Assembly (NCBI RefSeq): GCF_018141525.1
Contig: NZ_CP064655.1
Coordinates: 682,001-746,000 of the forward strand
Reading direction: 5' to 3'
Source: Miltoncostaea marina
GTDB taxonomy: Bacteria; Actinomycetota; Thermoleophilia; Miltoncostaeales; Miltoncostaeaceae
Length of the DNA: 64,000 nt
Below, piece by piece: positions 8,994-62,811 of this stretch (within the stretch, counting starts at the first letter, position 1; every line of letters begins with the position of its first letter). The position numbers and the translations under genes are program-made. The notes below the pieces were generated by a model. The model searched no databases. It saw only the letters and a list, made by a program, of their open reading frames with translations, and was not told the origin of the DNA.

Positions 8994-11900
8994 TCAGGCC
9001 CGCAGCACGAGCCCCCGCAGGTCGGTGGCGAACCCCGCGCCCGCGAGGCGGGCCTCCATCGGCCCGCCGAACACCGGCTCGCCGTCCACGCGCTCGATCG
9101 ACAGCCGCCGGCGCCGGTCGGCGAGCACCCAGGCGGCGAGGGCCCGGACGGCGTGGTCGAGCTCCCGGTCGTCCGTGCCCGCGAAGGTCAGCAGCGCCCG
9201 CCCCCCGCGCTCGAGGTACAGCGCGGGCGCCCCGTCGACCAGGACGACCTGCGCGCCGAACACCCGCGCGGGCGAGCGGGCGCCCTCGCGCTTGGGCCAC
9301 GGCGCGGCGGCGCCGTAGGGCTGCGCGGGGTCGGCGGCCCCGATCACCAGCGTCGCGGGCTCGTCGCCGACGGGGGCCTCGCGCAGATCGCGCAGTCGCT
9401 CGACGGCGCCCGGCATCGCGAACTGGGCGCCGCCGAGGCCGGCGACGAAGTAGCCACGCCGGACGACGCCGAGCGTCTCGAGGTCGCTGAGCGCCGGGTA
9501 GACGGCCGCGTAGCCGCCCGGCACGCCCTCGGCGAGGGCCGCGGACCGGGTGAGGATGCCGTGGCGCTCCACCAGCAGCTCCGCCGTGGCCCGCCGGCGC
9601 TCGTCGTCCGGCACGGCGCCGTCGAACAGGCGCCCGGCGAGCGACCAGCGGCCCGCCACCGCGGACGGCGCGCCGCGGCGGGCGCCGAGGCGGCGGCGCC
9701 CCGCGGCGCTCGGGCGCTGCAGGGCGGGCAGCCGGCGCGGCGCCCGCAGTGGCAGCCAGAGGTCGTTGGTGACCTCGCCCGCCCAGACGAGCGCCCAGAG
9801 GGCGGTGAACACGTCCTCGCGCGAGGCGTCCACCGCCCTGACGAGGTCGTCCCAGAAGCTCGCGCCCGACGCGAGCGCCGCGCGCAAGGCGACCGCCGTG
9901 GGGTCGTCGGGCGACGGGTCGGCCGGCGGCGGCCCCAGCAGCGGGGCGTCGTCGCGGAAGAGCAGGGCGACGCGGCCGCCGCCCACGCCGCCCGCGCCCG
10001 CGCCCACCCAGACCACCTCGCCGCGGGCGGCGAGCTCGTCGAGCCAGGCGGTCGCGTAGCCGGGCACCCGGCGTGGGAGCACCTCGCCCTCCCACTGGGC
10101 GGGCGGCAGGGCGAGCCCCTGGAGCGTCGTCAGCGCGTCGCGCAGCGCCTCGACGCCGTGCGCGCCGCCGGCCCGGTCGACCCGCTGCCAGTCGGGCAGG
10201 AACCTGCCGAGCGCCCGCGGCTCGGCCGGCTCGATCTCGCGCCGCAGCGCGGCGAGGCTGGCCCGCCGCAGCCGCCGCACCACCTCGGCGTCGCACCACT
10301 CCCGCCCGGAGCCGCCCGGGCGCAGCTCGCCGCGCACCAGGACGCCCTCGGCCTCGAGGTCCGCGAGCGCGGGCTCGACCGCCCCCGCCGGCAGGCGGTA
10401 GCGGGCCGCGAGGTCGGCGCCGTGGAAGGGCCCCCGCGAGCGGGCGAAGCGGGCCACGATGCCCCGCAGCGCGTCCGGGACGGGCTCGAGGAACGCCTCG
10501 GGGATGCCCGAGGGCGGCATCGCGCCCAGGCCGTCGCGGTAGCGGCCGGCGTCCTCCGCGGCGATCACCCGCTCCTCGCCGCCCAGGTGGATGCGGCATG
10601 CGCGCCGCTCGGCCACGAGCTGGTCGACCAGCCCGCCGGCGCGGGACGGCTCGGCCACCCGGCGCCGCACCTCGTCGGCCGAGAGGTCGCCGATGCGGCG
10701 CAGCAGGTCGTGCAGGCCGTCGGCGCCGCGGGCGCGGGCCCGCTCGGACAGCCCCTGCAGGTCGGCCTCGAGCGTCTCGAGGGCGCCCGGGTCGATGAGG
10801 TCCCGCAGCTCCTCCTGGCCGAGCAGCTCGCGCAGCAGGTCGCGGTTGAGCGACAGCGCCTGGGCGCGCCGCTCGGCGACCGGCGTGTCGTCCTCGTACA
10901 TGTAGGAGGCGACGTACTCGAACAGCAGCGAGCCGGCGAACGGCGAGGCGGTCGCGGTCTCCACCTCGACCACCGCCAGCTCGCGCGAGTCGATCCGGGC
11001 CAGCACGCCGCGCAGCGCCGGCAGGTCGAACCAGTCGTTGAGGCACTCGCGGTAGGTCTCGAGGATGACGGGGAAGCTGCCGAAGTTGCGCGCCACCTGC
11101 AGTAGCGACGAGGCCTTGAGGCGCTGCTGCCACAGCGGCGTGCGCTGCCCCGGGCGCCGGCGGGGGATGAGCAGCGCGCGGGCGGCGTTCTCCCGGAAGC
11201 GGGCGCCGAACAGCGCGGTGCCGCCGAGCTCCGCCAGCACGAGATCCTCGAGCTCGTCGGGCGGCACGGTGACGATGTCGGGCGCCGGCGCCTCGTCGGC
11301 GTCCGGCAGGTGCACGGCGATGCCGTCGTCGCCCCAGATCGTGTGGGCCTCCTGGCCGGTGCGGGCGCGGATGCGGGCGCCCACCGCGAGCGCCCACGGG
11401 GCGTGGACGCGCGCGCCGAACGGGGTCAGCACGCACAGCCGCCAGTCGCCGATCTCGTCGCGGAAGCGCTCGACCACGACGGCGCGGTCGCTCGGCACGG
11501 TGCCGGTGGCCTGCGCCTGGTCCTCCAGGTACGCGACCAGGTTGCGTGCGGCGCGGCCGTCGAACGAGCTGTCGTCGCGCAGGCGCGCGGCCGCGCGCTC
11601 GGGCCCCGCCGCGATCAGCTCGCGGGCCAGCCGGCCGACCGCCTCGCCCAGCTCGTACGGCCGGCCGACGCCCTCGCCCTTCCAGAAGGGCAGCGCCCCC
11701 GGGGCGCCGGGGGCGGGCGTCACGATGACCCGGTCGCGCGTGATCTCCTCGATGCGCCAGGTGGACGCGCCCAGCATGAAGGTCTGGCCGCTGCGCGCCT
11801 CGTAGACCATCTCCTCGTCCAGCTCGCCCACGCGGGCGCCGTCGGGCAGCACCACCGCGTAGAGGCCCCGGTCGGGGATGGTGCCCGCGTTCTGCACCGC

Positions 11901-37792: not shown

Positions 37793-39177
37793 GTGATCTT
37801 CCGCCAGCTCACCCACGACGACCTCGGCTGCGCGAGCTACCTGATCGGGGACGACGACGCGGGCGTCGCAGCGGTCGTCGACCCGCGGCTCGACATCGAC
37901 GAGTACCTGCGCCTGGCCCGCTACCTCGGGGTGCGCATCGAGCACGTCATCGAGACCCACACCCACGCCGACCACGTCTCCGGCCACGGCCGGCTGGTGG
38001 CCGCGACGGGGGCGACCATCCACATCCACCGCGACGCGGCGCCCGCGTACGACCACGAGCCGATCGACGAGGGCTGGGAGCTGCGCCTGGGGGCGCTGGC
38101 CGTGCGCGCGCTGCACACCCCGGGCCACCGGCCGGAGCACACGGCGTTCACGCTGACCGACACCGGCCGCAGCGACGAGCCCTGGGCGGTGCTCACCGGC
38201 GACTCGCTCTTCGTCGGCGACATCGCCCGCCCGGACCTCGCGGTCGACCGCGAGGAGGGCGCGCGCGGCATCTTCCGGTCGCTCCGCGGGGCGCTGCTGC
38301 CGCTGCCCGACACGGTGGAGGTGTGGCCGGGCCATCTCGGCGGCTCGATGTGCGGCGGCCCCGGCATGGACCTCAAGATCTGCTCGACGATCGGCTTCGA
38401 GCGGGCCACCCAGGACCTGCTCGGCATCGCCGACGAGGACGCGTTCGTGGAGCGGGCGCTGGCCGGCCTCGGGCCGCAGCCGCCCAACTTCCGCGCCATC
38501 GTGGAGCTCAACCGCGGCCCGCTGCTGCGCGAGCCGCTCGACGCCCACCCCCTCACCCCGCGCCAGGTGCGGGCGGCCGCCGCCGACGGCGCGCTGGTCG
38601 TGGACGTGCGCACCGGCTTCCAGTTCGACGAGGCGCACGTGCCGGGCGCGGTCAACATCACGATCCGCCGGGCGGGGTTCGGCTCGAAGCTCGCCTGGAT
38701 CGCCCAGCCGGGGCAGCCGCTGGTCTTCGCGGGGCGCGACGACGAGACGGCGCTGCAGGCCGCCGGGCTCGCCGCGGCGGTCGGCGTGCGCGAGGTCGCG
38801 GGCTACCTGTCCGGCGGCATGACCGCGTGGCGCGACGAGCGGCTGCCCGTGGAACGCGTCGCCCGCATCGACGTGCCGGGCCTGCACGAGCGCTGGCGCG
38901 CCGGCGACGGCGTGCAGGTGCTCGACGTGCGGGAGCGCGCCGAGTGGGAGGCGGGACACATCCCCGGCTCGGTGCACATGCCGTACCACGACGTGCGCGG
39001 GGTGCCGGCGGGCATCGACCCGGCCCGCCCCGTGGCGGTCGTCTGCGGCTCGGGTCAGCGCTCCGCCGTGGCCACGGGCCTGCTGCGGCGCGGCGGCGTG
39101 CGCGAGCCGCTCCACGTGGTGGACGGCGGGGTGCCGGCCTGGGCCCGCGCGGGCTGGCCGATCGCGACCGGCGGGGC

Positions 39178-39181
<4 letters not shown>
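37793..39181 (+). CDS. MBL-fold persulfide dioxygenase-like protein with two rhodanese domains
   Basis: A 462-residue protein. The N-terminal metallo-beta-lactamase fold of the ETHE1/persulfide-dioxygenase type has the metal motif THTHADHVSGH, GHRPEHTAF, LTGDSLFVGDIARPDL and WPGHLGGSMCG. Two rhodanese domains follow. The first lacks the catalytic cysteine (VFAGRDDETAL) and is probably structural; the second has it in VVCGSGQRSA. Such proteins oxidise glutathione or other thiol persulfides to sulfite. A close paralogue sits in the sulfur operon at 47,282. GTG start at 37793 with GGAGGG about 8 nt upstream. The stop overlaps the convergent ABC gene by 4 nt. Confidence 0.9.
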
Positions 39182-44184: not shown

Positions 44185-44217
44185 TTGCAGCACAACCACA
44201 CGGTGGTACAGTTGTGC
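44185..44217 (+). promoter_or_regulatory. arsR promoter with overlapping operator
   Basis: TTGCAG (44185-44190), a 16-bp spacer and TACAGT (44207-44212) form a promoter ending 7 nt before the ATG, so the transcript is probably leaderless. A perfect inverted repeat, GCACAAC (44190-44196) and GTTGTGC (44211-44217), spans it. A smaller dyad, ACCAC-ACG-GTGGT (44195-44207), lies nested inside. A dimeric ArsR repressor bound here would block the promoter. Confidence 0.6.
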
Positions 44218-44219
44218 GC

Positions 44220-44573
44220 ATGACCGAACCAGTCGCGATCCCACACCCCCTCCCGGAGCCGCTCGTCGAGCTCATCGCGCAGCGCTTCCGGGTGATCGGC
44301 GAGCCCATGCGCATCCGCCTGCTCGACGCGCTGCGCGACGGGCCGCGCACCGTCAACGAGCTCACCGAGGCGCTCGGCGCCACCCAGCAGAACGTCTCCA
44401 AGCACGTCGGCGTGCTGGCGCAGGCCGGCATCGTCGCCCGTCGGCGGGACGGCAACCGCGTCCGCTGCTCGATCGCCGACGACACCATCTTCGAGCTCTG
44501 CGAGCTGGTCTGCGGCGGCCTGCGCCGGCAGGTCGCCGAGCTCGACGAGCTGCTCGCCGGGGGTGCCGCATGA
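44220..44573 (+). CDS. ArsR/SmtB-family repressor of the sulfur operon
   Basis: A 117-residue winged-helix regulator. The recognition region is TVNELTEALGATQQNVSKHVGVLAQAGIVARRRDGNRVRCSI at residues 44-85. The genes it heads (rhodanese, persulfide dioxygenase, sulfite-type exporter, OsmC) are those controlled by persulfide-sensing BigR/SqrR-type ArsR proteins. The cysteines differ, though: only Cys83, Cys94 and Cys98, all in the C-terminal half, with no early Cys corresponding to the usual pair. It may sense by Cys94/Cys98 or by another ligand. The operator over its own promoter implies autoregulation. The stop overlaps the next ATG. Confidence 0.87.
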   Translation: MTEPVAIPHPLPEPLVELIAQRFRVIGEPMRIRLLDALRDGPRTVNELTEALGATQQNVSKHVGVLAQAGIVARRRDGNRVRCSIADDTIFELCELVCGGLRRQVAELDELLAGGAA

Positions 44574-44824
44574 GCGCCCCCTGCGCCCCGTCCGGCGGCC
44601 CGCGCATCGAGCGCCTGCTGTTCGCGCTGGCCGGCACGGTCACGCTGGCGAGCGTGGCCCTCGCCGTCCTCGTGACGCCGTGGTTCCTGCTGCTGACCGT
44701 GTTCGTCGGCCTCAACCAGTGGCTGTACGCCGCGGTCGGCGCCTGCCCCGCCTCCCTCATCCTCACGCGGCTCCTCGGTGCGGGGGCCGCCCCCCGCACT
44801 CCGCCCACCTCCCAGCCCAGGTGA
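44570..44824 (+). CDS. DUF2892 (YgaP-like) membrane protein
   Basis: An 84-residue protein with two membrane helices around residues 14-35 and 38-58. The following ACPASLILTRLLG matches the conserved C-P segment of DUF2892. This domain is fused to or found beside rhodaneses, as in YgaP, and is thought to anchor sulfur-transfer proteins at the membrane. Here it lies in the same operon as two rhodanese proteins. The ATG overlaps the arsR stop (ATGA), and its own stop overlaps the start region of the transporter gene (GTGATG). Confidence 0.82.
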   Translation: MSAPCAPSGGPRIERLLFALAGTVTLASVALAVLVTPWFLLLTVFVGLNQWLYAAVGACPASLILTRLLGAGAAPRTPPTSQPR

Positions 44825-46947
44825 TGCCGATGTCGTCCTCCGCCTCCTACGGTCCGATCGGCCGCCTCGGCCGATGGACCGCGAGCCACTTCCGCCTCGT
44901 CGCCATCGCCTGGGCGGTGATCGCCGTCGGCCTCGGCGTGGTCGCGCCGAGGGCCGAGCACGCCCTGTCCGGCGCCGGCTGGGAGGCCGCCGGGTCCGAG
45001 TCGCTCAGCGTGCGCGAGACCGTCGACCGCGAGTTCGGCGGCCTGTCGTCGTCGGCGCTGATGGTCGTCGTGCACTCCGACGAGGCGACCGTCGCCGACC
45101 CCGCCTTCCGGTCGGTCGTCGCCGAGGCCCAGCGGACGCTGGCCGCCGACCCCCGGGTGACCGAGGTCGTGCCGCCGCGGCCGGGGCAGTCGATCTCGCG
45201 CGACGGGCACACCGCCGTCATCCAGGCGGGCGCCGGCACCGACTCCAACGAGATGGTGCGCGCCGCGGACGACCTCAAGGGGCCGCTCGCCGCGCTGCCG
45301 GCCGACGGCGTGCAGGTCTCCCTGACCGGCGCGTCCGGCATGTGGTCGGACTTCAACGAGGCCAACAAGGCCGCGATGATGACGTCCGAGCTGATCTCCT
45401 GGCCGGTGACCCTCGGCATCCTCCTGCTGGCCTTCGGCTCGCTCGTGGCCGCCGGCCTGCCGCTGATGCTCACCATCCTCGGCCTGGTCGCGTCGGCCGG
45501 CTCGCTGTACCTGGGCACCCAGCTCATGGACATCTCGATCTGGGCGATGAACTTCGCGCTGATGTTCGCGCTCGCGCTGGGCATCGACTACGCGCTGTTC
45601 ATCGTCTACCGCTTCCGCGGGGCGTTCTTCGGCTCGGAGGAGCCCGTCGAGGACGCCGTGGCCGAGACCATGGACACGGCCGGCAAGGCGGTCCTGTTCT
45701 CCGGGCTCACCGTGCTGATCTCGCTGAGCGCGGTGCTGCTCGTGCCGTCGCCCGCCTTCCGCTCGATGGCGCTCGGCATCATGCTCTCGGTCATCTTCAT
45801 CCTGGCGGCGACGCTGACGCTGCTGCCGGCGGTGCTCGCGAAGCTGGGCTCGCGGGTGGACAAGCTCTCGCTGCCGTGGGTGCACTCGGGCGAGCACCGC
45901 TCGCCCAGGTTCGCCGCCTGGGGCGAGCGGCTGTGGCGCCGTCCGGTCGCCTACGGCGCGGCGGCGGTCGTCGCCCTGGTCGCGCTGAGCATCCCGGTGT
46001 TCGGGCTGCAGACCGGCATGCCGTCCATCAAGGTCGTGCCCGAGGGCGACGGCTCCCGGGTCGCCTACGCCCAGGTGCAGGACGCCTTCGGCCCCGGCGC
46101 GCCCGGCTCCCTGCAGATCGTCGCGCCGGCGGCCGACGCGCAGCGGGTCGCCGCGGTCGCCCGGTCCGACGAGGGCGTGGCCCAGGTGATGCCCGCCATG
46201 TCCGGGCGCGGCGGCAGCGTGATGGTCCAGGTCGTGCCGCGGCACGACCCGTCGGACCCGGCGGTCGGCGCGACCATCGACCGCCTCCGCGACCAGCTGC
46301 CCGAGGGCGCGCTCGTCGGCGGCGCGGTGGCCGAGAACCACGACCTCGAGGGGGCGCTCGCCGCGAAGACGCCGCTCGTGATCGGCGTCGTGCTCGCGCT
46401 CGGCTTCCTGCTGCTGCTGGTCGCGTTGCAGGCGCCGATCCTCGCCGCGGTCGGCGTGGTGACGAACCTGCTGGCGGTCGGCGCGGCGTTCGGCGTCGCC
46501 CGGCTGATCTTCCAGGAGGGGCACCTGGCCGGCCTGCTCGGCCTGGAGCCGCAGGGCTTCCTCAACGCCTGGGCGCCGGTGTTCTTCTTCGCGATGGTCT
46601 TCGCCATCTCGATGGACTACACGGTGTTCCTGCTCTCCTCGGCCAAGGAGCACTGGGACCGCAGCAAGGACCCGCGCGAGGCCATGGTCGGCGGCGTCGC
46701 CCACTCCGGGCGCGTCGTCTTCGCCGCCGCCGCCGTGATGGTCGCCGTGTTCTTCACCTTCGCGCTGAGCGGCCCGCTGCCGCCGAAGGAGATGGGCGTC
46801 ATCCTCGGCATCGCGGTCCTGCTCGACGCCCTGCTGGTGCGCCTGCTGCTCGTGCCGGTCGCCCTGCGGCTGCTGGGCCGGTGGGCGTGGTGGATGCCCA
46901 GGTCGCTCAGCCGCGTCCTGCCCGACGTCCGCTTCGGGCACGCGTGA
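44824..46947 (+). CDS. MMPL/RND-family transporter
   Basis: A 707-residue MMPL-type transporter with the usual duplicated plan. A first helix (about 25-45) is followed by an extracytoplasmic domain and helices clustered around 190-365 including the GIDYALFIVYRFR motif. The second half repeats this, with its cluster around 520-695 and the matching SMDYTVFLLSSAKEH motif. The Asp-Tyr pairs are the proton-relay positions. Such proteins usually export lipids or small molecules; its presence inside a persulfide operon is unusual. Start is ATG at 44824 or the GTG one codon earlier, both overlapping the upstream stop. The stop overlaps the rhodanese ATG. Confidence 0.9.
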   Translation: MPMSSSASYGPIGRLGRWTASHFRLVAIAWAVIAVGLGVVAPRAEHALSGAGWEAAGSESLSVRETVDREFGGLSSSALMVVVHSDEATVADPAFRSVVAEAQRTLAADPRVTEVVPPRPGQSISRDGHTAVIQAGAGTDSNEMVRAADDLKGPLAALPADGVQVSLTGASGMWSDFNEANKAAMMTSELISWPVTLGILLLAFGSLVAAGLPLMLTILGLVASAGSLYLGTQLMDISIWAMNFALMFALALGIDYALFIVYRFRGAFFGSEEPVEDAVAETMDTAGKAVLFSGLTVLISLSAVLLVPSPAFRSMALGIMLSVIFILAATLTLLPAVLAKLGSRVDKLSLPWVHSGEHRSPRFAAWGERLWRRPVAYGAAAVVALVALSIPVFGLQTGMPSIKVVPEGDGSRVAYAQVQDAFGPGAPGSLQIVAPAADAQRVAAVARSDEGVAQVMPAMSGRGGSVMVQVVPRHDPSDPAVGATIDRLRDQLPEGALVGGAVAENHDLEGALAAKTPLVIGVVLALGFLLLLVALQAPILAAVGVVTNLLAVGAAFGVARLIFQEGHLAGLLGLEPQGFLNAWAPVFFFAMVFAISMDYTVFLLSSAKEHWDRSKDPREAMVGGVAHSGRVVFAAAAVMVAVFFTFALSGPLPPKEMGVILGIAVLLDALLVRLLLVPVALRLLGRWAWWMPRSLSRVLPDVRFGHA

Positions 46948-47285
46948 TGGGGCTGTTCACGCGCGGCCACTCGATCGACGTCGTCGAGGCCTCGGCCGGG
47001 CAGCGGTCCGGCCGGCTGGTCCTGGTCGACGTCCGCGAGCCCTCCGAGCGGGCGCGGGGCGCGGCGCCCGGATCGCGGCATCTGCCGCTCGGCCGGCTCG
47101 AGGAGGGCCTCGGCCGGCTGCCGGCCGACCGCCCCGTCGCGTTCATCTGCCAGAGCGGCCGCCGCTCGGCGATGGCCGCGGCGCTCGCGCGGCGCGTCGG
47201 TCTGGACGCCCGCAACGTGTCCGGCGGCATGCGGGCCTGGGAGCGCCACGGCCTGGACACGACCGTCCCCGGGGAGGCCCGATGA
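46947..47285 (+). CDS. single-domain rhodanese
   Basis: A 112-residue rhodanese (sulfurtransferase). LVLVDVREPSERARG is the start of the fold. The active loop FICQSGRRSAMAA has the persulfide-carrying Cys near residue 71, and NVSGGMRAWERHG is the typical C-terminal block. It would pass sulfane sulfur between thiols, probably to or from the persulfide dioxygenase encoded next. Both ends overlap neighbouring genes by 1-4 nt, so it is tightly co-translated. There is no membrane anchor; DUF2892 may supply one. Confidence 0.92.
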   Translation: MGLFTRGHSIDVVEASAGQRSGRLVLVDVREPSERARGAAPGSRHLPLGRLEEGLGRLPADRPVAFICQSGRRSAMAAALARRVGLDARNVSGGMRAWERHGLDTTVPGEAR

Positions 47286-48676
47286 TCTTCCGCCAGCTCA
47301 CGCACGACGACCTCGGCTGCGCCAGCTACCTCATCGGCGACGAGGAGGCCGGCGTCGCCGCGGTCGTCGACCCCAGGCTCGACATCGACGAGTACCTGCG
47401 CCTGGCCCGCTACCTCGGCGTGCGCATCGAGCACGTCCTCGAGACCCACAACCACGCGGACCACGTCTCGGGGCACGGGCGGCTGGTCGCCGCGACCGGC
47501 GCGACCATCCACATCCACCGCGACGCGGCGCCCGACTACGACCACGAGCCGTTCGACGACGGCTGGGAGCTGCGCATCGGCGCGCTGACCGTCCGCGCGC
47601 TGCACACGCCCGGGCACCGCCCCGAGCACACCGCGTTCGCGCTCATCGACAGGGCGCGCTCGGACGAGCCGTGGGCGGTGCTGACCGGCGACACGCTGTT
47701 CGTCGGCGACATCGCCCGCCCCGACCTCGCCGTCGACACGGAGGAGGGCGCGCGCGGCATCTTCCACTCCCTCCACGACACGCTCATGCGCCTGCCCGAC
47801 ACCGCCGAGGTCTGGCCGGGGCACCTCGGCGGGTCGCTCTGCGGCGGACCGGGCATGGACCTCAAGGTGGCCTCGACGATCGGCTTCGAGCGCGCCAACC
47901 AGGAGCTGCTGCGCATCGCCGACGAGGACGAGTTCGTCGAGCGGACGACCTCGGCGCTCGGCCCGCAGCCGCCGAACTTCCGCAACATCGTCGCGCTCAA
48001 CCGCGGCCCGCTGGTGAAGGAGTCCGTCGAGGCGCACCCGCTCACGCCGCGGCAGGTGCGGCAGGCGCGGGCGGACGGGGCCCTGGTGGTCGACGTGCGC
48101 ACCGAGCGGCAGTTCGACGAGGCCCACATCCCGGGGGCGGTGTCCATCACCGCCCGCCGCGCCGGGTTCGGCTCGAAGCTGGCGTGGCTGGCGCGGCCCG
48201 AGCAGCCGCTCGTGCTGGTCGGCCGCGACGACGGCGACGCCGTCGCGGCCGCCCACCTCGCCGGCGCCGTCGGCCTGCGGAACGTCGCGGGCTACCTGGC
48301 CGGCGGCATGACCTCGTGGCGCGAGGAGACGCTCGACGTGGAGCGGACGGAGCGGATGACCGTGCCGGAGCTGCACGAGCGCTGGGAGCGCGACCGCGAC
48401 GGGCTGCAGATCCTGGACGTCCGGGAGCGCAGCGAGTGGGACGACGGGCACATCCCCGGCTCCGTCCACCGGCCCTACCACGACATCCGCGGCGTGCCGG
48501 AGGGCATCGACCCCGCCGGGCCGGTCGCGGTCGTCTGCGGCTCGGGCCAGCGCTCCGCCGTGGCCGCGAGCCTGCTGCAGGCCCTCGGCGCAGGGCGGGT
48601 CATCCACGTCGTCGACGGCGGCGTTCCGCTGTGGGAGCGCGAGGGCTGGCCGACCGAGCGGTCCGTGACGAGCTGA
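47282..48676 (+). CDS. MBL-fold persulfide dioxygenase-like protein with two rhodanese domains
   Basis: A 464-residue paralogue of the protein at 37,793, very close along its whole length by eye. The metal motif is THNHADHVSGH (Asn replaces the paralogue's second Thr, but the three His and Asp remain). GDTLFVGDIARPDL and WPGHLGGSLCG follow. Of the two rhodanese domains, the first lacks Cys (VLVGRDDGDAV) and the second has it (VVCGSGQRSA). It would oxidise a low-molecular-weight thiol persulfide to sulfite plus thiol, the central step of the operon. ATG at 47282 overlaps the rhodanese stop (ATGA). Confidence 0.92.
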   Translation: MIFRQLTHDDLGCASYLIGDEEAGVAAVVDPRLDIDEYLRLARYLGVRIEHVLETHNHADHVSGHGRLVAATGATIHIHRDAAPDYDHEPFDDGWELRIGALTVRALHTPGHRPEHTAFALIDRARSDEPWAVLTGDTLFVGDIARPDLAVDTEEGARGIFHSLHDTLMRLPDTAEVWPGHLGGSLCGGPGMDLKVASTIGFERANQELLRIADEDEFVERTTSALGPQPPNFRNIVALNRGPLVKESVEAHPLTPRQVRQARADGALVVDVRTERQFDEAHIPGAVSITARRAGFGSKLAWLARPEQPLVLVGRDDGDAVAAAHLAGAVGLRNVAGYLAGGMTSWREETLDVERTERMTVPELHERWERDRDGLQILDVRERSEWDDGHIPGSVHRPYHDIRGVPEGIDPAGPVAVVCGSGQRSAVAASLLQALGAGRVIHVVDGGVPLWEREGWPTERSVTS

Positions 48677-48681
48677 CCGGC

Positions 48682-49476
48682 GTGCTGCTGGCCATCCCGT
48701 TCGGGCTCGCGATGGGGTTGGCCGTCGGCACGCTCGGGGGCGGCGGGTCCGTGCTCGCCGTCCCCATCCTGGTCTACGTCCTCGACCAGAGCGTCCCCGA
48801 GGCGACCACCGCCTCGCTCCTGGTGGTCGCCGTCGGCGCGGTCGCCGGCGGGCTGAGCCACGCGCGCGCCGGCCGCGTCTGCTGGCGCCACGCCGGCTCG
48901 TTCACCGCCGCGGCGGTGCCGGGCATCGCGCTCGGGACGCTCGCCGGCGAGGCCGTCGGCGGATCGCTGCTGCTCGGCGGCTTCGCCCTGGTGATGCTGG
49001 CCGCCGCGCACGCCACCTGGCGCAAGAGCGACGACCGGGGGCCGGAGCCCGACGGTCCCTGGGAGCGCACGGGCGCCTGCCCGCCGCTGCGCCTGCCGCG
49101 CGACATCGTCGCGGGGGCCGCGGTCGGGTTCCTCACCGGCCTGTTCGGCGTCGGCGGCGGGTTCCTGATCGTGCCGACGCTCGCGATCGCCCTCGCGTTC
49201 ACCATGCGCACCGCGGTCGGCACCTCGCTGGCGATCATCACCGCCACGTCGCTGCTCGGCCTCGGCGCCCACCTGATCGCCGGGCGCTCGGCCGACGCCG
49301 ACGTCACGACCGTCCTGGCGATCGCCTGCGCGGCCGGGGCCGTGGCCGGCGCCTCGATCGCCGGCCGCATCCCGCAGCGGCTGCTCGGCCGCGGCTTCGC
49401 GCTGCTCGTGGTCGCCGTGGCCGCGTACCTGCTCGTCTCCGTGGCGTTCCTCGGCGGCCCGCCGGGCGCGTCCTGA
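48682..49476 (+). CDS. TauE/SafE family sulfite/anion exporter
   Basis: A 264-residue membrane protein with about eight helices in two repeats. Each repeat contains a glycine-rich signature: GLAVGTLGGGGSVLAVPILV near residue 10 and GFLTGLFGVGGGFLIVPTLA near residue 150. TauE/SafE proteins export sulfite, sulfoacetate or related anions, so it probably removes the sulfite made by the upstream persulfide dioxygenase. GTG at 48682 is the first good start, 5 bp after the previous stop. Confidence 0.88.
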   Translation: MLLAIPFGLAMGLAVGTLGGGGSVLAVPILVYVLDQSVPEATTASLLVVAVGAVAGGLSHARAGRVCWRHAGSFTAAAVPGIALGTLAGEAVGGSLLLGGFALVMLAAAHATWRKSDDRGPEPDGPWERTGACPPLRLPRDIVAGAAVGFLTGLFGVGGGFLIVPTLAIALAFTMRTAVGTSLAIITATSLLGLGAHLIAGRSADADVTTVLAIACAAGAVAGASIAGRIPQRLLGRGFALLVVAVAAYLLVSVAFLGGPPGAS

Positions 49477-49502
49477 ACTCCGACCACCCACCTGGAGGCA
49501 CC

Positions 49503-50021
49503 ATGCACAACGTCGACGTCGACGCCCTCAACGCGACCATCGCCAGGGCCACCGGCGATCCCGCCGCAGTCCGGCAGCCGGTGCGCTTCGAGGGCGAGTG
49601 GCAGACCGGCGGCGGCCCGCAGTTCACGGCGTCGATCCCCGTCCCGGGCGGCGACCCCGTCAGGTTCGAGGCCGACTTCCCGCCGCCCATGGGCGGCACC
49701 GGCTCGGCGCCCAACCCGCTCGCCTACTGCTTCTGGGGCGGCATGGCGTGCTACGCCATGACCTTCGCGCAGGAGGCCGCCCGCCAGGGCGTCGAGCTGC
49801 GGGGCCTGCGGGCGCGCGCGGAGGCCGAGGTCGACCAGTCGCGCGCGCTCGGCGTGACCGGCAACCCGCCGGTCGAGCGCATCGACTGGTACCTCGAGGT
49901 CGACGCCGACGCCCCCGCCGAGCGGCTGGAGGAGCTCAAGCGCCTGGCCGACGAGCGCTGCCCCGGCGCCTACTGCGTCCGCAACCCCGTCGAGCTCGCC
50001 ACCCACCTCGAGCGCGCCTGA
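49503..50021 (+). CDS. OsmC/Ohr-like protein
   Basis: A 172-residue OsmC-family protein, normally a thiol-dependent peroxidase homodimer. The first reactive-Cys region is GGMACYAMTFAQEAARQG near residue 84. The second conserved region, LADERCPGAYCVRNP, contains Cys in the usual C-terminal position plus one extra. OsmC-like proteins commonly end sulfur-oxidation operons such as this one. A clear GGAGG lies about 6 nt before the ATG, unlike the overlapping genes before it. It is the last gene of the operon. Confidence 0.87.
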   Translation: MHNVDVDALNATIARATGDPAAVRQPVRFEGEWQTGGGPQFTASIPVPGGDPVRFEADFPPPMGGTGSAPNPLAYCFWGGMACYAMTFAQEAARQGVELRGLRARAEAEVDQSRALGVTGNPPVERIDWYLEVDADAPAERLEELKRLADERCPGAYCVRNPVELATHLERA

Positions 50022-57687: not shown

Positions 57688-59352
57688 TCAGTCTGTCGTC
57701 GCTGGCGCTTCACGGTCGCGCATACTCAGTTCCGCAACGTTCCGGAGGACGGTCAGAACGGAAGGCGGAAGCCGACCCTCGCTTGCCAGTATTGAGGCGC
57801 AGCGGGCCGAGGCCGCCGGCGACTTCGAAGAGGTGCCAAGTTCGCTGGCAACGTCGCGGACCAGCTCGCGGTATCTCGGAACCTCTTCCGCGAGCATCGT
57901 TTCAAAATCGTTCTCCCAGAGCGCGACGGATTCGCTGACGGTGGTGGGGGGGAACGGGTCGAACTGAGCGCCAGCCTGTCGAATGAGCACGCTGTTCAGC
58001 TCCAGGTTTCTCTGGACCTGGTCCGGCCGGCAGCGTCCGTCCGCATCGGCCACTACAAAGCACGGAATCTCGAACGAGGCGAGAACGTCGCGCACGCTGG
58101 CAAGCGCGGCCTTACCGCCAACCGGCACGACGGCGACGTTCATTTCGTCCAAGTCGATGCCCGCGGCGCGCCCAAAAATCGGGAAGCAAAGGGCCTCGGT
58201 CGGCCCCTCGACAAGCAGGGCTGCGGAGGCAAACAGAGCCTCGGAACGACGGTCATCGAGCCAACTGCCAAGGTGAGCGCGCAGGGCCGCCTCCGATGAA
58301 TCCCTTCGCCTGCTCTTCTGCGCCTCGATCACGCTCTCGACGCTCACTTGGAGCGCGTCGGTGCCCCATCCAGCCGGCCCTATGCGCTTTCTAACGCGTA
58401 CTATCTCATCGAAATGCGCCAGATCGAGCATCGACGCTGAATGTGTGGTGTAAAAGACCTGCAGGGGTTCGCGCCCGTCTGTTGGATAAGCTAGTTCTCT
58501 GAGTAAGCGATAGAGCCTTCGCACCCCCTGAGGGTGAAGGAAGAGTTCGGGTTCTTCGATCGCGATGACCGCTCGGTCGCCACGCGCCAAGGCGGCGTAC
58601 GTCCGCACGATGCCAATCACGAGGAGAGACTGTAGACCCGCGCCCCCTTGGTCGCCACGCATCCGCATCCCGCACTCCACGAAAATTAGATGCAGCAGGC
58701 GGTAGAAGCTCCACGGGTCTTTCAGGGCAAGATCTACGTCGATATCGTCGATACCGTGCCCAAGCTGCTCCGCCATGTTGCGCTTGAGCGCTGTGCGCAG
58801 GACGTCGAAGCTCGGTGTAGCTTGGAGCACGTCGTGCTGCAGTCGCTCTAGAGCGTCCTCAAAGTCCTGAAGGCGCTCGCTTGAGGCGTTTAACTCCTCG
58901 TCAACATCCTGCAGGAGGCGCCCTAGCAGGGACCAGCGGTTCGTCGGCGCCTGCTGAGAGACACGACGATCCGTGCCAATTCGTAATAGCGAGAAGCGCC
59001 GCCACTCTTCGCGCGACACGCCTCTACTCCAACCGCCGCTCGCGTTGCCCTTATGCAGCGTGAGCGCCGGATCATCGAAGCCTTTATGGAAGGAGAAATC
59101 AACGGGCGTGGGCGTCTCGGCCGTCGTCCATCTCACGCAGATCTCCGGCTGCAGCGCACGGTCGCCGAAGCAGCGGTCTTCGTCGTTGAACGAGGCTTCG
59201 CTCGGGTATCGACTGCCGAAAACCAAGTCGAGAGCGGAAAGAATGTTCGACTTCCCCGCGTTGTTGGGGCCCACCAACGCGCACAGGGGGCGGGGGGTGA
59301 TCCTCAAGCGGCGGATGGACCGCCAGTTGAGAATGTCGATGTGCTCGATCAT
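57688..59352 (-). CDS. OLD-family ATPase with TOPRIM nuclease domain
   Basis: A 554-residue protein of the overcoming-lysogenization-defect family. The N-terminal ABC-type ATPase begins with IDILNWRSIRRLRI and Walker A GPNNAGKS (Lys34), with Walker B AVIAIEEPELFLHPQG (Glu266-Glu267) and the switch His in YTTHSAS near 304. The C-terminal TOPRIM domain has Glu382 in LLVEGPTEALCF and the metal-binding DxD at Asp436/Asp438 in VVADADG. OLD proteins are ATP-controlled nickases and nucleases, used in Gabija, PARIS-like and some retron defence systems. ATG at 59352 has GGAG about 7 nt upstream. Lower GC content than the host genes indicates transfer. Confidence 0.92.
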   Translation of the reverse strand: MIEHIDILNWRSIRRLRITPRPLCALVGPNNAGKSNILSALDLVFGSRYPSEASFNDEDRCFGDRALQPEICVRWTTAETPTPVDFSFHKGFDDPALTLHKGNASGGWSRGVSREEWRRFSLLRIGTDRRVSQQAPTNRWSLLGRLLQDVDEELNASSERLQDFEDALERLQHDVLQATPSFDVLRTALKRNMAEQLGHGIDDIDVDLALKDPWSFYRLLHLIFVECGMRMRGDQGGAGLQSLLVIGIVRTYAALARGDRAVIAIEEPELFLHPQGVRRLYRLLRELAYPTDGREPLQVFYTTHSASMLDLAHFDEIVRVRKRIGPAGWGTDALQVSVESVIEAQKSRRRDSSEAALRAHLGSWLDDRRSEALFASAALLVEGPTEALCFPIFGRAAGIDLDEMNVAVVPVGGKAALASVRDVLASFEIPCFVVADADGRCRPDQVQRNLELNSVLIRQAGAQFDPFPPTTVSESVALWENDFETMLAEEVPRYRELVRDVASELGTSSKSPAASARCASILASEGRLPPSVLTVLRNVAELSMRDREAPATTD

Positions 59353-59452
59353 GGGCACTCCGAGACTGTCGCATACGCGCAGGACGGCGACAGGCTGGGC
59401 GATGGATCCGCCGCCGAGCAGCGCCAAGGAGCCCCCTCGGAGAGACCCCAGA

Positions 59453-59479
59453 TCGACAGCGCCGTCTGGGCGGTAAAGT
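59453..59479 (+). promoter_or_regulatory. promoter of the RT operon, leaderless
   Basis: TCGACA (59453-59458) and TAAAGT (59474-59479) are spaced 15 bp apart, and TAAAGT ends 7 nt before the ATG at 59487. It lies in the 134-bp gap between the divergent OLD and 171-aa genes, so both halves of the cargo start here. Confidence 0.45.
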
Positions 59480-59486
59480 CGCCTGC

Positions 59487-60002
59487 ATGGGCACAACCCC
59501 CGCCCCAACACCGCCGCGGTCCATCGATGCGCTGTGGGCTGCGATCACGCGAGCGCCCGCCTCGCCCGAAAGGCGACTGCAGCGTCATCGGCCAGCACTC
59601 GCGCTTGCCCAGTCGCGCGGCGCTGAGGAGGCGGGCGAAATTCTCTTCAGAGCGATGGCGGACGACGGGGAGCAGCCCATCATCGGAGACGAAGACCTAG
59701 GCGTTCGGGAGGGCATCGATGTCAGGCCGGATTCGGCCGGCGTGGTCGGCCCCGGGCGAGGCATGAGCGTTGCGCCACGGACGCCGAGAAACCTGCACAT
59801 CAACCACCGCCCAGCGTCGCTCGATGGCACGGGTACGAAGCCCGTCTGGCGAATCGAAAGAGAGCGAATCGACGACCCGCTCGCCTACCGTCAGACTTCG
59901 ACCAAGCACGGTCAGATCGAGCCGGTGACCGCAGTCGCGCTTTCAAAGTACCGCTGCGATCTCGCGGCCACCCGCGACGACTGGACACTGCATGCCCGGT
60001 GA
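59487..60002 (+). CDS. 171-aa protein of unknown function, first gene of the RT operon
   Basis: A soluble 171-residue protein. An N-terminal helical part (SIDALWAAITRAPASPERRLQRHR ... EEAGEILFRAMADD) is followed by a proline-rich linker. The C-terminal unit reads GMSVAPRTPRNLHINHRP, PVWRIERERI, HGQIEPV and YRCDLAATRDDW. That last unit looks like a conserved compact fold I have seen in small unannotated proteins, but I cannot name it. Codon use is coding-like and matches the island. Its stop overlaps the RT start by 11 nt, so it is translated with the RT. It could be an accessory, effector or regulator. Confidence 0.6.
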   Translation: MGTTPAPTPPRSIDALWAAITRAPASPERRLQRHRPALALAQSRGAEEAGEILFRAMADDGEQPIIGDEDLGVREGIDVRPDSAGVVGPGRGMSVAPRTPRNLHINHRPASLDGTGTKPVWRIERERIDDPLAYRQTSTKHGQIEPVTAVALSKYRCDLAATRDDWTLHAR

Positions 60003-61860
60003 CCTGGAGCGGCGGCACGCTGACCGGGCAACCGTCGAAAGCGTGCAGGATCTCCGTGAGCTATTGGCGGGCGGCGCTTCCCTTGAGGCGATCGCGGCCG
60101 GCCTTTCCGCGCTGCAAACGAGAGGTCTCGAGCGCTCGGAGCTCCAGGTCCACGTAGAGCGTATGCGCGCCGAGAACGCCAGCGGCAGGCAGGATCCCGC
60201 CCTGGAGCGTAACGCCCAGCTTGCGCTCGACCTGATTCTGGGCTCTTCTCTCCCCGAGTCTCTTTCGTGGGATGCGCCCCGCATGGCCGCCGTCCATGCG
60301 GCCCATGTCCTCACCGAAGACGTTGTCCATTTTTCGGCGGAGTTTGCTCAAAGGCCTAGTGACCTTCTGCCGCCGCGGCCGATCGCCCGTGTCTCCGCGG
60401 AGCTACTGAGTGAGTTAGCGCACCGAGCCGCGGCAACAATCAGAGCAGGCACGGCGGAGCCCACACCTGCTGACTTCTTTCGAGTTCCAAAGGACCCCTT
60501 TACGACCCGTCCAGCGGCGCTCCTTGCGTGGAATGACCGCCTTCTCTTCGAGAGCCTCGCCTCCGTCTATGAAGATGCGCTCGTAGAGCGCTTGCCGAAG
60601 GCGGCGCGGTGGCCGCGCGGCCGGCGATGGGGCCGCTTCACCCCGATCAATGAGACCGTAGCAACGTGGGCCGCGCCTTACGTTGTGCGCGCGGACGTCG
60701 AGGCCTTCTACGAGTCAGTCGACCATGCCCTCCTGGCGGAACTCCTCGATTACCACTTTCCAAGCACTGACCAAGACGCGCCCAGGGCCGTTCGGACGTT
60801 CCTCGATGCAATAATGGCGAGCGGGGTTGGGTTGCCGCAAGGCGTTGCTGCGAGCGATGTCTTCGCTGGCGTGTATGTCGCACCGCTAGACCTGAGACTC
60901 GAACTGGACCGGTGGGACTGGACTCGGGTGGGCGACGACTACTGGTTTCCCGCGACGTCTATCGACGACGCTCGGCGACGACTTGCCACGCTGGAGGAAT
61001 GGCTACAAACACTCGGCCTCCGCCTCAATGGAGATAAGACGCTCGTGCTGAAGGCTGAAACCTTCAGGCGCCTTGAGCGGCCCAGGAAGAACCGAATCGA
61101 GCGACATCTGGAGCGGCTCAGGCAAGCGGCCGGCCATGCCATCCTCGAAGGCGATACCAATGAGATCATTGAACGACTCCGGCAGCAGGGTGTACCGGAG
61201 GAGCAGCTATGGTCGGTCTTCTATCATGGCCAGACCCCCCTTCCGGACCTGATCGAGGACCTTAGAGCGCAACTTGCTCCTCAGCTTGTCGATCTGTACG
61301 ACGCGCGGCTAAGCGAAATCGTTGAGAGAGTCAGGCGACGTGATGTCCCAGGCGAGCGACGAGCGGAAATGGAGACGGAACTCCGTGACGCGCTCAGTGC
61401 CTTTTCGGGGTCAGACATACAAATTGAAGGCGACGACGTGGCGGTAGTCCTCAGCTGGTTCCCACGTTTGGCGCCTGCATTCAGCGGTTACCTGCGCCAT
61501 GCCGAAGGTGAATATCTTGAGCGCGTCTTGCCGCCATTGATTGACGCTTCTACGAGCGACTGGATAAGTGCCTGGCTCGTCGCCGCCGTGGAGGAGCGAC
61601 CGAGCGTTGTTGTGGGGAGTCTCGCCGATGCGCTTGAGCGGGTTGTCGTGCATCGGGCAGACAAGCCGCTGAGCCGTGTCGCCGCCATGCGTTCCATCGC
61701 GAGAGTGGGCACGCTATCCGGCGAGACCCTGGCGCGTGTATGGGAGGAAGCGACTCCGGCCGTGCGGTCGGAGATCGCGCTCTCTGTGTTTGCTGAGCCG
61801 CATCACTACGACGTCGGTGAAGGGCGTGACGTGACGCGAAGGTACGGTGCGCTCCGCTAG
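59992..61860 (+). CDS. reverse transcriptase with large N- and C-terminal extensions
   Basis: A 622-residue protein with an RVT_1-type core at about residues 160-360. RVPKDPFTTRP resembles the early RT motif. The first catalytic Asp is Asp235 in RADVEAFYESVDH, motif B is GLPQGVAASDV (280-290), the catalytic pair is Asp315-Asp316 in RVGDDYW, and LNGDKT is at 345-350. Most RTs read YxDD; here it is VGDD. Residues 1-155 are helical and unassigned. Residues 370-622 are helical and HEAT-like. The retron marks NAxxH and VTG are not seen. All catalytic residues are kept, so it should be active. The closest functional class is probably the defence-associated RTs. Confidence 0.85.
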   Translation: MPGDLERRHADRATVESVQDLRELLAGGASLEAIAAGLSALQTRGLERSELQVHVERMRAENASGRQDPALERNAQLALDLILGSSLPESLSWDAPRMAAVHAAHVLTEDVVHFSAEFAQRPSDLLPPRPIARVSAELLSELAHRAAATIRAGTAEPTPADFFRVPKDPFTTRPAALLAWNDRLLFESLASVYEDALVERLPKAARWPRGRRWGRFTPINETVATWAAPYVVRADVEAFYESVDHALLAELLDYHFPSTDQDAPRAVRTFLDAIMASGVGLPQGVAASDVFAGVYVAPLDLRLELDRWDWTRVGDDYWFPATSIDDARRRLATLEEWLQTLGLRLNGDKTLVLKAETFRRLERPRKNRIERHLERLRQAAGHAILEGDTNEIIERLRQQGVPEEQLWSVFYHGQTPLPDLIEDLRAQLAPQLVDLYDARLSEIVERVRRRDVPGERRAEMETELRDALSAFSGSDIQIEGDDVAVVLSWFPRLAPAFSGYLRHAEGEYLERVLPPLIDASTSDWISAWLVAAVEERPSVVVGSLADALERVVVHRADKPLSRVAAMRSIARVGTLSGETLARVWEEATPAVRSEIALSVFAEPHHYDVGEGRDVTRRYGALR

Positions 61861-62731: not shown

Positions 62732-62737
62732 CTGAGG

Positions 62738-62811
<74 letters not shown>

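Follow-up and report, generated by a model that had tools for sequence, protein, structure and literature searches.

A conserved regulator-DUF2892-MMPL module within a putative reactive-sulfur stress operon of Miltoncostaea marina

The window analysed here is a stretch of 64,000 nt of Miltoncostaea marina (NZ_CP064655.1, positions 682,001-746,000, forward strand), and all coordinates are window positions. Inspection of the open reading frames (ORFs) revealed an operon of seven genes at 44220-50021, all on the plus strand, for an ArsR-family repressor, a DUF2892 protein, an MMPL transporter, a rhodanese, a persulfide dioxygenase (PDO), a TauE/SafE protein and an OsmC protein (Table 1). The enzymes of the operon are of a known kind; what is new is the conserved module of regulator, DUF2892 and MMPL, together with its predicted operator and predicted sensor cysteines. 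The preferred reading, to which a probability of about 0.5 is given, is that the operon serves against reactive-sulfur stress and that its MMPL, driven by protons, removes a hydrophobic compound, probably one bearing sulfane sulfur, from the membrane.

A preliminary description of the locus had proposed a seven-gene operon of these families with five start/stop overlaps or near-overlaps, and both points were confirmed by the ORFs and by Pfam and NCBIfam searches. The ArsR/DUF2892 and rhodanese/PDO junctions are ATGA overlaps, the MMPL/rhodanese junction is a TGATG overlap, and the DUF2892/MMPL junction is a TGATG overlap if the ATG at 44824 is the start codon or a 5-nt gap if it is 44830. A single 5-nt gap, between PDO and TauE, adds to these four start/stop overlaps, and the 26-nt gap between TauE and OsmC contains a GGAGG ribosome-binding site ahead of OsmC. 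Pfam backs all seven family names; the score of the DUF2892 match (YgaP-like_TM) is slightly under the cut-off of 25.3 bits, and the assignment was kept because the protein aligns with 77 conserved neighbours of related MMPL genes, in all of which (77/77) a Cys is conserved. A codon-usage gene call, whose initial training set consisted of these genes, recovered the same seven genes.

Table 1. Genes and predicted operator of the operon in the window.
Feature	Position	Strand	Evidence and remarks
Operator-like inverted repeat ACAAC-N14-GTTGT	44192-44215	.	Ends 4 nt before ArsR start codon
ArsR-family repressor	44220-44573	+	Pfam/NCBIfam; C94-x3-C98 in last helix; no Shine-Dalgarno sequence
DUF2892/YgaP-like transmembrane protein, 84 aa	44570-44824	+	Pfam 24.0 bits; conserved Cys in neighbours
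MMPL (RND superfamily) transporter, 705-707 aa, no cysteine	Start 44824 or 44830, end 46947	+	Pfam, fold model, D253-Y254 and D596-Y597
Single-domain rhodanese, active-site loop CQSGRRS	46947-47285	+	Pfam, sequence
CstB-like PDO: metallo-beta-lactamase (MBL) fold, Cys-less rhodanese, rhodanese with CGSGQRS loop	47282-48676	+	Pfam, PDB matches
TauE/SafE sulfite exporter family, GTG start	48682-49476	+	Pfam 145.8 bits
OsmC-family thiol protein	49503-50021	+	Pfam, NCBIfam

Relatives of the MMPL were collected from GTDB contigs, genome samples and plasmid records. The 80 relatives retained of 163 found on GTDB contigs are 66-88% identical to the window MMPL, and by record title nearly all of them are actinobacterial, mostly Thermoleophilia (one is labelled Chloroflexota, and some labels of metagenome-assembled genomes look wrong). 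In a phylum sample of 296 genomes, 15 genomes other than the window's have matches of 55-76% identity and three have matches of 40-42%, after which identity is at most 38%; the list breaks sharply below the 55-76% group. A clade MMPL match at 1e-120 was obtained in 64 of 200 evenly sampled genomes of the class, and 44 plasmid records match at 1e-60, 41 of which are from Rhodococcus. The window MMPL belongs to a distinct actinobacterial clade and is not a local oddity.

Gene neighbourhoods were compared for 80 GTDB-contig loci, 20 loci of the phylum sample and six plasmid loci hand-picked from 40 listed, and for an outgroup of 20 MMPL loci (31-36% identical), which stem from the search of that phylum sample and include two loci of the window's own genome. 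Regulators of ArsR or CsoR type were accepted, and neighbours were counted at distances of up to 6 kb. A regulator together with DUF2892 was found at 54/80 contig, 10/20 phylum and 6/6 plasmid loci versus 0/20 in the outgroup, and at least one of rhodanese, PDO and TauE at 16/80, 2/20 and 3/6 loci versus 0/20. With a wider sulfur set (rhodanese, PDO, TauE, DUF302, OsmC and proteins like sulfide:quinone reductase, SQR) the counts were 34/80, 14/20 and 6/6 versus 2/20; some seeds match their own source locus, and flank lengths differ between loci. When only loci flanked by 2.5 kb or more on each side were considered, the wide set was present at 23/49 and 19/25 versus 1/17 loci, and regulator plus DUF2892 at 39/49 and 15/25 versus 0/17. 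In 20 class loci gathered later, with partly overlapping species, regulator plus DUF2892 was found in 12/20 and rhodanese, PDO or TauE in 5/20. The first clustering of neighbours left out loci L107 and L021, and both are included in the later tblastn counts (L107 as its longer version L144).

The conserved core is regulator-DUF2892-MMPL, and the sulfur-oxidation genes are a variable attachment in some lineages. Of the picture of a sulfur operon with an MMPL gene inside, given in the preliminary description, the association stands in that it recurs, but the conserved part is the three-gene core. The possibility, raised there, that the MMPL gene accompanies such an operon only here fails, since the neighbourhood analysis shows recurrence. 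The order ArsR-DUF2892-MMPL-rhodanese-PDO-TauE is repeated in locus L189 and shorter forms of it occur in L009, L088 and L176, with MMPL-rhodanese-PDO-TauE or MMPL-PDO-TauE in L189, L009 and L088. On the Rhodococcus plasmids pREL1, pBD2 and pRHL3 the MMPL gene lies near genes for a CsoR-type regulator, DUF2892, TauE and MBL proteins, in the orders MMPL-DUF2892-DUF302-TauE-CsoR type-MBL on pBD2 and rhodanese-MMPL-CsoR type-DUF2892-DUF302-TauE-MBL on pRHL3. Sulfur detoxification genes adjoin the core module in several separate branches: after exclusion of 33 of the 121 rows of the MMPL tree with less than 2.5 kb on one side, PDO-bearing rows (14 of 88) are scattered over the tree with 12 state changes, gain and loss not being distinguished. 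That the MMPL gene has ended up in this single operon by chance, to which the 72 of 80 clade loci with no PDO found next to them might be taken to point, is already disfavoured by the neighbourhood counts and is considered highly improbable in view of the recurrent partnership, the overlapping frames and the attachment of PDO in separate branches.

The regulator carries a C-x3-C pair (C94 and C98 in the window) that is present in 73/73 ArsR neighbours of the clade, the window's included, and both cysteines lie in the last helix (89-116) of the ArsR model, whose predicted local distance difference test score (pLDDT) is 91.3. The sequence ahead of the gene is ACAACCACACGGTGGTACAGTTGT. Of the 78 non-redundant upstream regions, 54 match the pattern ACAACT-N12-AGTTGT at 10-12 of 12 positions in their best match, versus 0.15 expected from dinucleotide shuffles, eight of 86 regions having been removed as near-identical and the pattern having been derived from these same sequences. 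None of the 20 upstream regions of outgroup MMPL genes scores above 8, and 16 of 24 minus-strand ArsR genes have an operator score of at least 10. In five loci (L027, L046, L050, L076 and L077) ArsR and DUF2892-MMPL are oriented divergently, and therefore the site lies between them there. The exact operator occurs once in the scan of the window and likewise only once in that of the whole 3.37 Mb genome, which makes ArsR look dedicated to this operon. A wider ArsR regulon was rejected, as the 18 further places with one mismatch are chance-like against 41 for a backwards control pattern. The ArsR transcript is probably leaderless, judging by a start codon 4 nt past the operator and the lack of a ribosome-binding site.

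Several points weigh against the sulfur reading. A PDO gene adjoins the clade MMPL in only 8/80 contig loci. Among the 64 clade-bearing genomes of the class sample a close PDO homologue (1e-40, matched by hand) is present in 35 and absent in 29, lies next to or one gene from MMPL in only 3 of the 35 (the window's genome, G382 and G351), and is nearly as common in class genomes without clade MMPL (59/136). The seeds for SQR, DUF302, CsoR and thioredoxin were picked after the clade loci had been viewed, and the loci are related and not independent; no weight is therefore placed on P values. Finally, the window ArsR has no Cys in helix 29-38 and thus lacks the alpha2 Cys of known ArsR persulfide sensors, which according to the sections available of PMC10509353 pair one alpha2 Cys with one alpha5 Cys. 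As 29/64 clade genomes have no close PDO and most copies have no adjoining PDO, MMPL is not dependent on the oxidation pathway, and at genome level MMPL and PDO show at most a weak association, the case for a local link being that the arrangement recurs.

The pair of alpha2 and alpha5 cysteines in one protomer, by which the SqrR/BigR/YgaV/HlyU cluster is defined, is absent from the window ArsR, and the BigR model NF040642 gave 36.5 of the 155 bits required. The closest solved ArsR structure is Rv0081 (E 3e-16), in which the C-x3-C pair is absent in the alignment and which, in the part of PMC10509353 at hand, sits in a largely uncharacterised network cluster. In genomes and plasmids of Mycobacteriales the partner is a CsoR-family protein that has kept two Cys and carries Gly at the copper-His position (15/15 full-length proteins). 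The copper ligands of CsoR include a His at that position, and CsoR-type partners with two Cys and without the copper His are as expected of CstR-like sulfur sensors.

These regulators also bear on an alternative in which the module protects against soft metals or against hydrophobic compounds that react with thiols (organomercury, organotin, arsenic) and sulfur genes join it via shared thiol chemistry. Metal genes do occur near plasmid loci, namely a P-type ATPase gene on a Tsukamurella plasmid, a cadmium transporter gene on pBD2 and an alkylmercury lyase gene on pNF2; the ygaVP genes of E. coli (ArsR plus a rhodanese membrane protein) are, in the accessible text of PMC9774250, induced by tributyltin as well as by sulfide, and the alpha5 Cys pair of ArsR recalls As(III) sensors with alpha5 ligands, as far as these are covered in the part of PMC10509353 consulted. 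However, a trigonal As(III) site needs three alpha5 Cys, whereas two are invariant here and a third Cys column is occupied in 5/73 ArsRs; furthermore, the CsoR-type partners are without the His of copper sensors, and no metal-transport gene was found among the ten recurrent neighbour proteins scanned. Soft-metal or organometal resistance is thus judged improbable, though it is a live rival of the sulfur reading.

The MMPL protein itself was assigned to the MMPL/RND family with a Pfam score of 243.4 bits and has an MmpL fold. Its model (pLDDT 87.6) contains 12 membrane helices, as read from the helix list, and no C-terminal extension, and the top structural match is MmpL3 (Z 51.3, root-mean-square deviation 3.0 over 676 residues, 26% identity). 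It shares fold and Asp-Tyr pairs with MmpL3 and MmpL4/5, and differs from them in its low identity (about 21-26%), the missing C-terminal extension and the sulfur-type gene context. It is no MmpL3 equivalog, given 199.2 bits versus 1400 with the NCBIfam model of the trehalose monomycolate exporter. Both Asp-Tyr proton-relay pairs are present in 104/104 clade MMPLs longer than 650 aa, and D253, Y254, D596 and Y597 are invariant in an alignment of 40 MMPLs, so that proton drive is expected. Cysteine is absent from the window MMPL and from 102/105 clade MMPLs longer than 600 aa versus 9/20 outgroup proteins; a Cys-free protein may suit exposure to reactive sulfur, though shared descent could account for the absence. 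No in-frame fusion of MMPL and DUF2892 occurs among those of 88 neighbouring pairs that are encoded on one strand (the loci being partly redundant), and gene fusion was dropped as proof of a physical link between them.

An ordinary envelope lipid would be another candidate substrate: sulfur or thiol stress would harm the envelope, and the pump would replace or remodel lipid and carry no sulfur. The nearest solved structures, those of the lipid exporter MmpL3 and the siderophore exporters MmpL4/5, fit such traffic, and neither a cysteine nor, in the alignment of 40, any special site suggesting sulfur binding was found in the MMPL. Yet sulfur-type regulators and DUF2892 accompany this clade and not the other MMPLs compared, including two from the window's own genome, and no lipid-synthesis gene is among the ten recurrent neighbour proteins scanned. 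Envelope-lipid traffic is accordingly retained as a live rival, less likely than the sulfur reading and less doubtful than metal resistance.

The PDO has the domain order of CstB, an MBL domain followed by a rhodanese domain without catalytic Cys and an active rhodanese domain, in Pfam as one MBL and two rhodanese stretches, and its best PDB matches, 3tp9 and 3r2u, span nearly the full protein. From this architecture we infer that it oxidises persulfide to sulfite, and the earlier reading of the operon as one of persulfide oxidation and sulfite export fits the CstB-like enzyme and TauE. Mycothiol was rejected as carrier thiol: only MshC was tried, and the match in this genome (243.5 bits versus a cut-off of 485.1) is read by us as a cysteinyl-tRNA synthetase, hence as no sign of mycothiol; low-scoring matches to the MshC model occur in all 14 control genomes and exceed the cut-off in one.

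Known bacterial sulfane-sulfur systems oxidise sulfur and export sulfite. The cst operon of Staphylococcus aureus, which consists of CstR, CstA, CstB and TauE under a CsoR-family sensor, shares TauE and the CstB architecture with the present operon, differs from it in the sensor type and is not known to contain MMPL or DUF2892. YgaP of E. coli joins rhodanese and the DUF2892 membrane part in one protein; in the window these are separate genes with MMPL between them, and the DUF2892 match is just under the Pfam cut-off. The E. coli ygaVP pair, which is induced by sulfide, resembles the present operon in combining an ArsR-type repressor with a rhodanese and a DUF2892 membrane part, while YgaV uses Cys31 and Cys98 and no MMPL appears in the portion of PMC9774250 available. 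For Streptomyces coelicolor the excerpted text of PMC7533328 describes an actinobacterial circuit that is alike in that a single repressor governs a PDO with rhodanese domain, a rhodanese and a sulfite exporter; its repressor is of CsoR type and, in that text, four genes and no MMPL, DUF2892 or OsmC are described. The SUL modules of an Arthrobacter plasmid likewise combine a CsoR regulator, sulfur dioxygenase, rhodaneses, TauE and DUF302, with a major facilitator superfamily transporter in place of MMPL, according to the available sections of PMC6305408. In Azospira suillum the genes Dsui_3440-3443 place a resistance-nodulation-division (RND) pump in an operon with SQR that is highly expressed under H2S oxidation, and the authors suggest metal-sulfide export; this is a Gram-negative efflux pump with a membrane fusion protein (MFP) subunit and not an MMPL, and deletion of the operon left H2S oxidation unchanged (PMC5358917, as far as its text was accessible). 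Literature searches, with subscription journals mostly outside their coverage, found no paper linking MMPL to persulfide or sulfane-sulfur operons, which agrees with the earlier statement that the conjectured export of a sulfur-bearing lipid or thiol is not described for these operons.

According to the preferred reading of a reactive-sulfur stress operon, ArsR would bind the operator and repress its own operon, and modification of the C94/C98 pair by sulfane sulfur would release ArsR and switch the operon on. By analogy to their families, the rhodanese would load a small thiol with sulfane sulfur, the CstB-like enzyme would oxidise the persulfide to sulfite, TauE would export the sulfite, and OsmC would deal with thiol peroxides or mixed sulfur species. 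MMPL, usually partnered by the small membrane protein DUF2892, would use proton drive for the removal from the membrane of a hydrophobic compound arising under sulfur stress; sulfane sulfur as such, in the form of S8 or organic polysulfanes, and a persulfidated lipid are the most economical candidates. A more far-reaching and tentative proposal, which at present appears unlikely, is that clade MMPL plus DUF2892 constitutes a dedicated proton-driven exporter of such hydrophobic sulfane sulfur or persulfidated lipid, widely distributed among actinobacteria and Rhodococcus plasmids. In Thermoleophilia the exporter would be under the control of ArsR proteins that form a new class of sulfur sensors, their two Cys being separated by a single helix turn of alpha5. 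With its tie to sulfur-type regulators, its predicted operator and its candidate sensor cysteines, this family of transporters makes the fate of membrane-dissolved sulfane sulfur directly testable in laboratory strains of Rhodococcus and offers a likely context for a clade annotated solely as 'MMPL family transporter' in the matching plasmid records.

With regard to the origin of the operon, a tree of 121 MMPL rows built with a quick method groups the window MMPL with L009 (Solirubrobacteraceae), L041 and L173 (SH-like approximate likelihood ratio test, SH-aLRT, 98), and the MMPL of the same-genus genome G382 (L176, 70% identical) is placed apart. Forcing the two together was rejected by the approximately unbiased (AU) test (p 1.3e-5; 34 of 121 rows, with the group chosen after the tree had been seen), and this topology makes it likely that the operon, or its core, was transferred horizontally. 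In the outer clade (40-42% identity) L144 has PDO, rhodanese, TauE and DUF2892, L142 a CsoR-type gene only and L143 a weak ArsR match (28%) only; these loci are too few to claim that the link to regulators and sulfur genes is older than the main clade.

Additional observations were made at clade loci and in the window. The Miltoncostaeales-type loci L083, L086, L057 and L067 carry a further MMPL gene of about 32-34% identity, which is encoded on the other strand, 2-3 kb downstream of the clade MMPL. In L027 a gene similar to DsrC/TusE (Pfam DsrC, 117 bits) at 11452-11754 is near the clade MMPL, and its cluster occurs in four loci. On Tsukamurella and Rhodococcus plasmids (L119 and L122) CcdA and TlpA envelope thiol-redox genes are close to the clade MMPL, on L119 together with DsbA, which may point to a connection with extracytoplasmic thiol chemistry. 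A second, solitary gene for a CstB-like dioxygenase-rhodanese is present at 37793-39181 (+), about 8 kb upstream of the operon, and shares with the operon copy 79% protein identity and about 82% DNA identity over 1.4 kb; the window scan found no operator near it. Finally, a low-GC stretch (0.64 versus about 0.76) at 57688-61860, beside a tRNA-Met gene (62736-62811), contains an OLD/GajA-like nuclease gene (57688-59511, minus strand) and a reverse transcriptase gene of DRT class RT_UG22 (59992-61860, plus strand, 252 bits) and looks like an anti-phage defence island.

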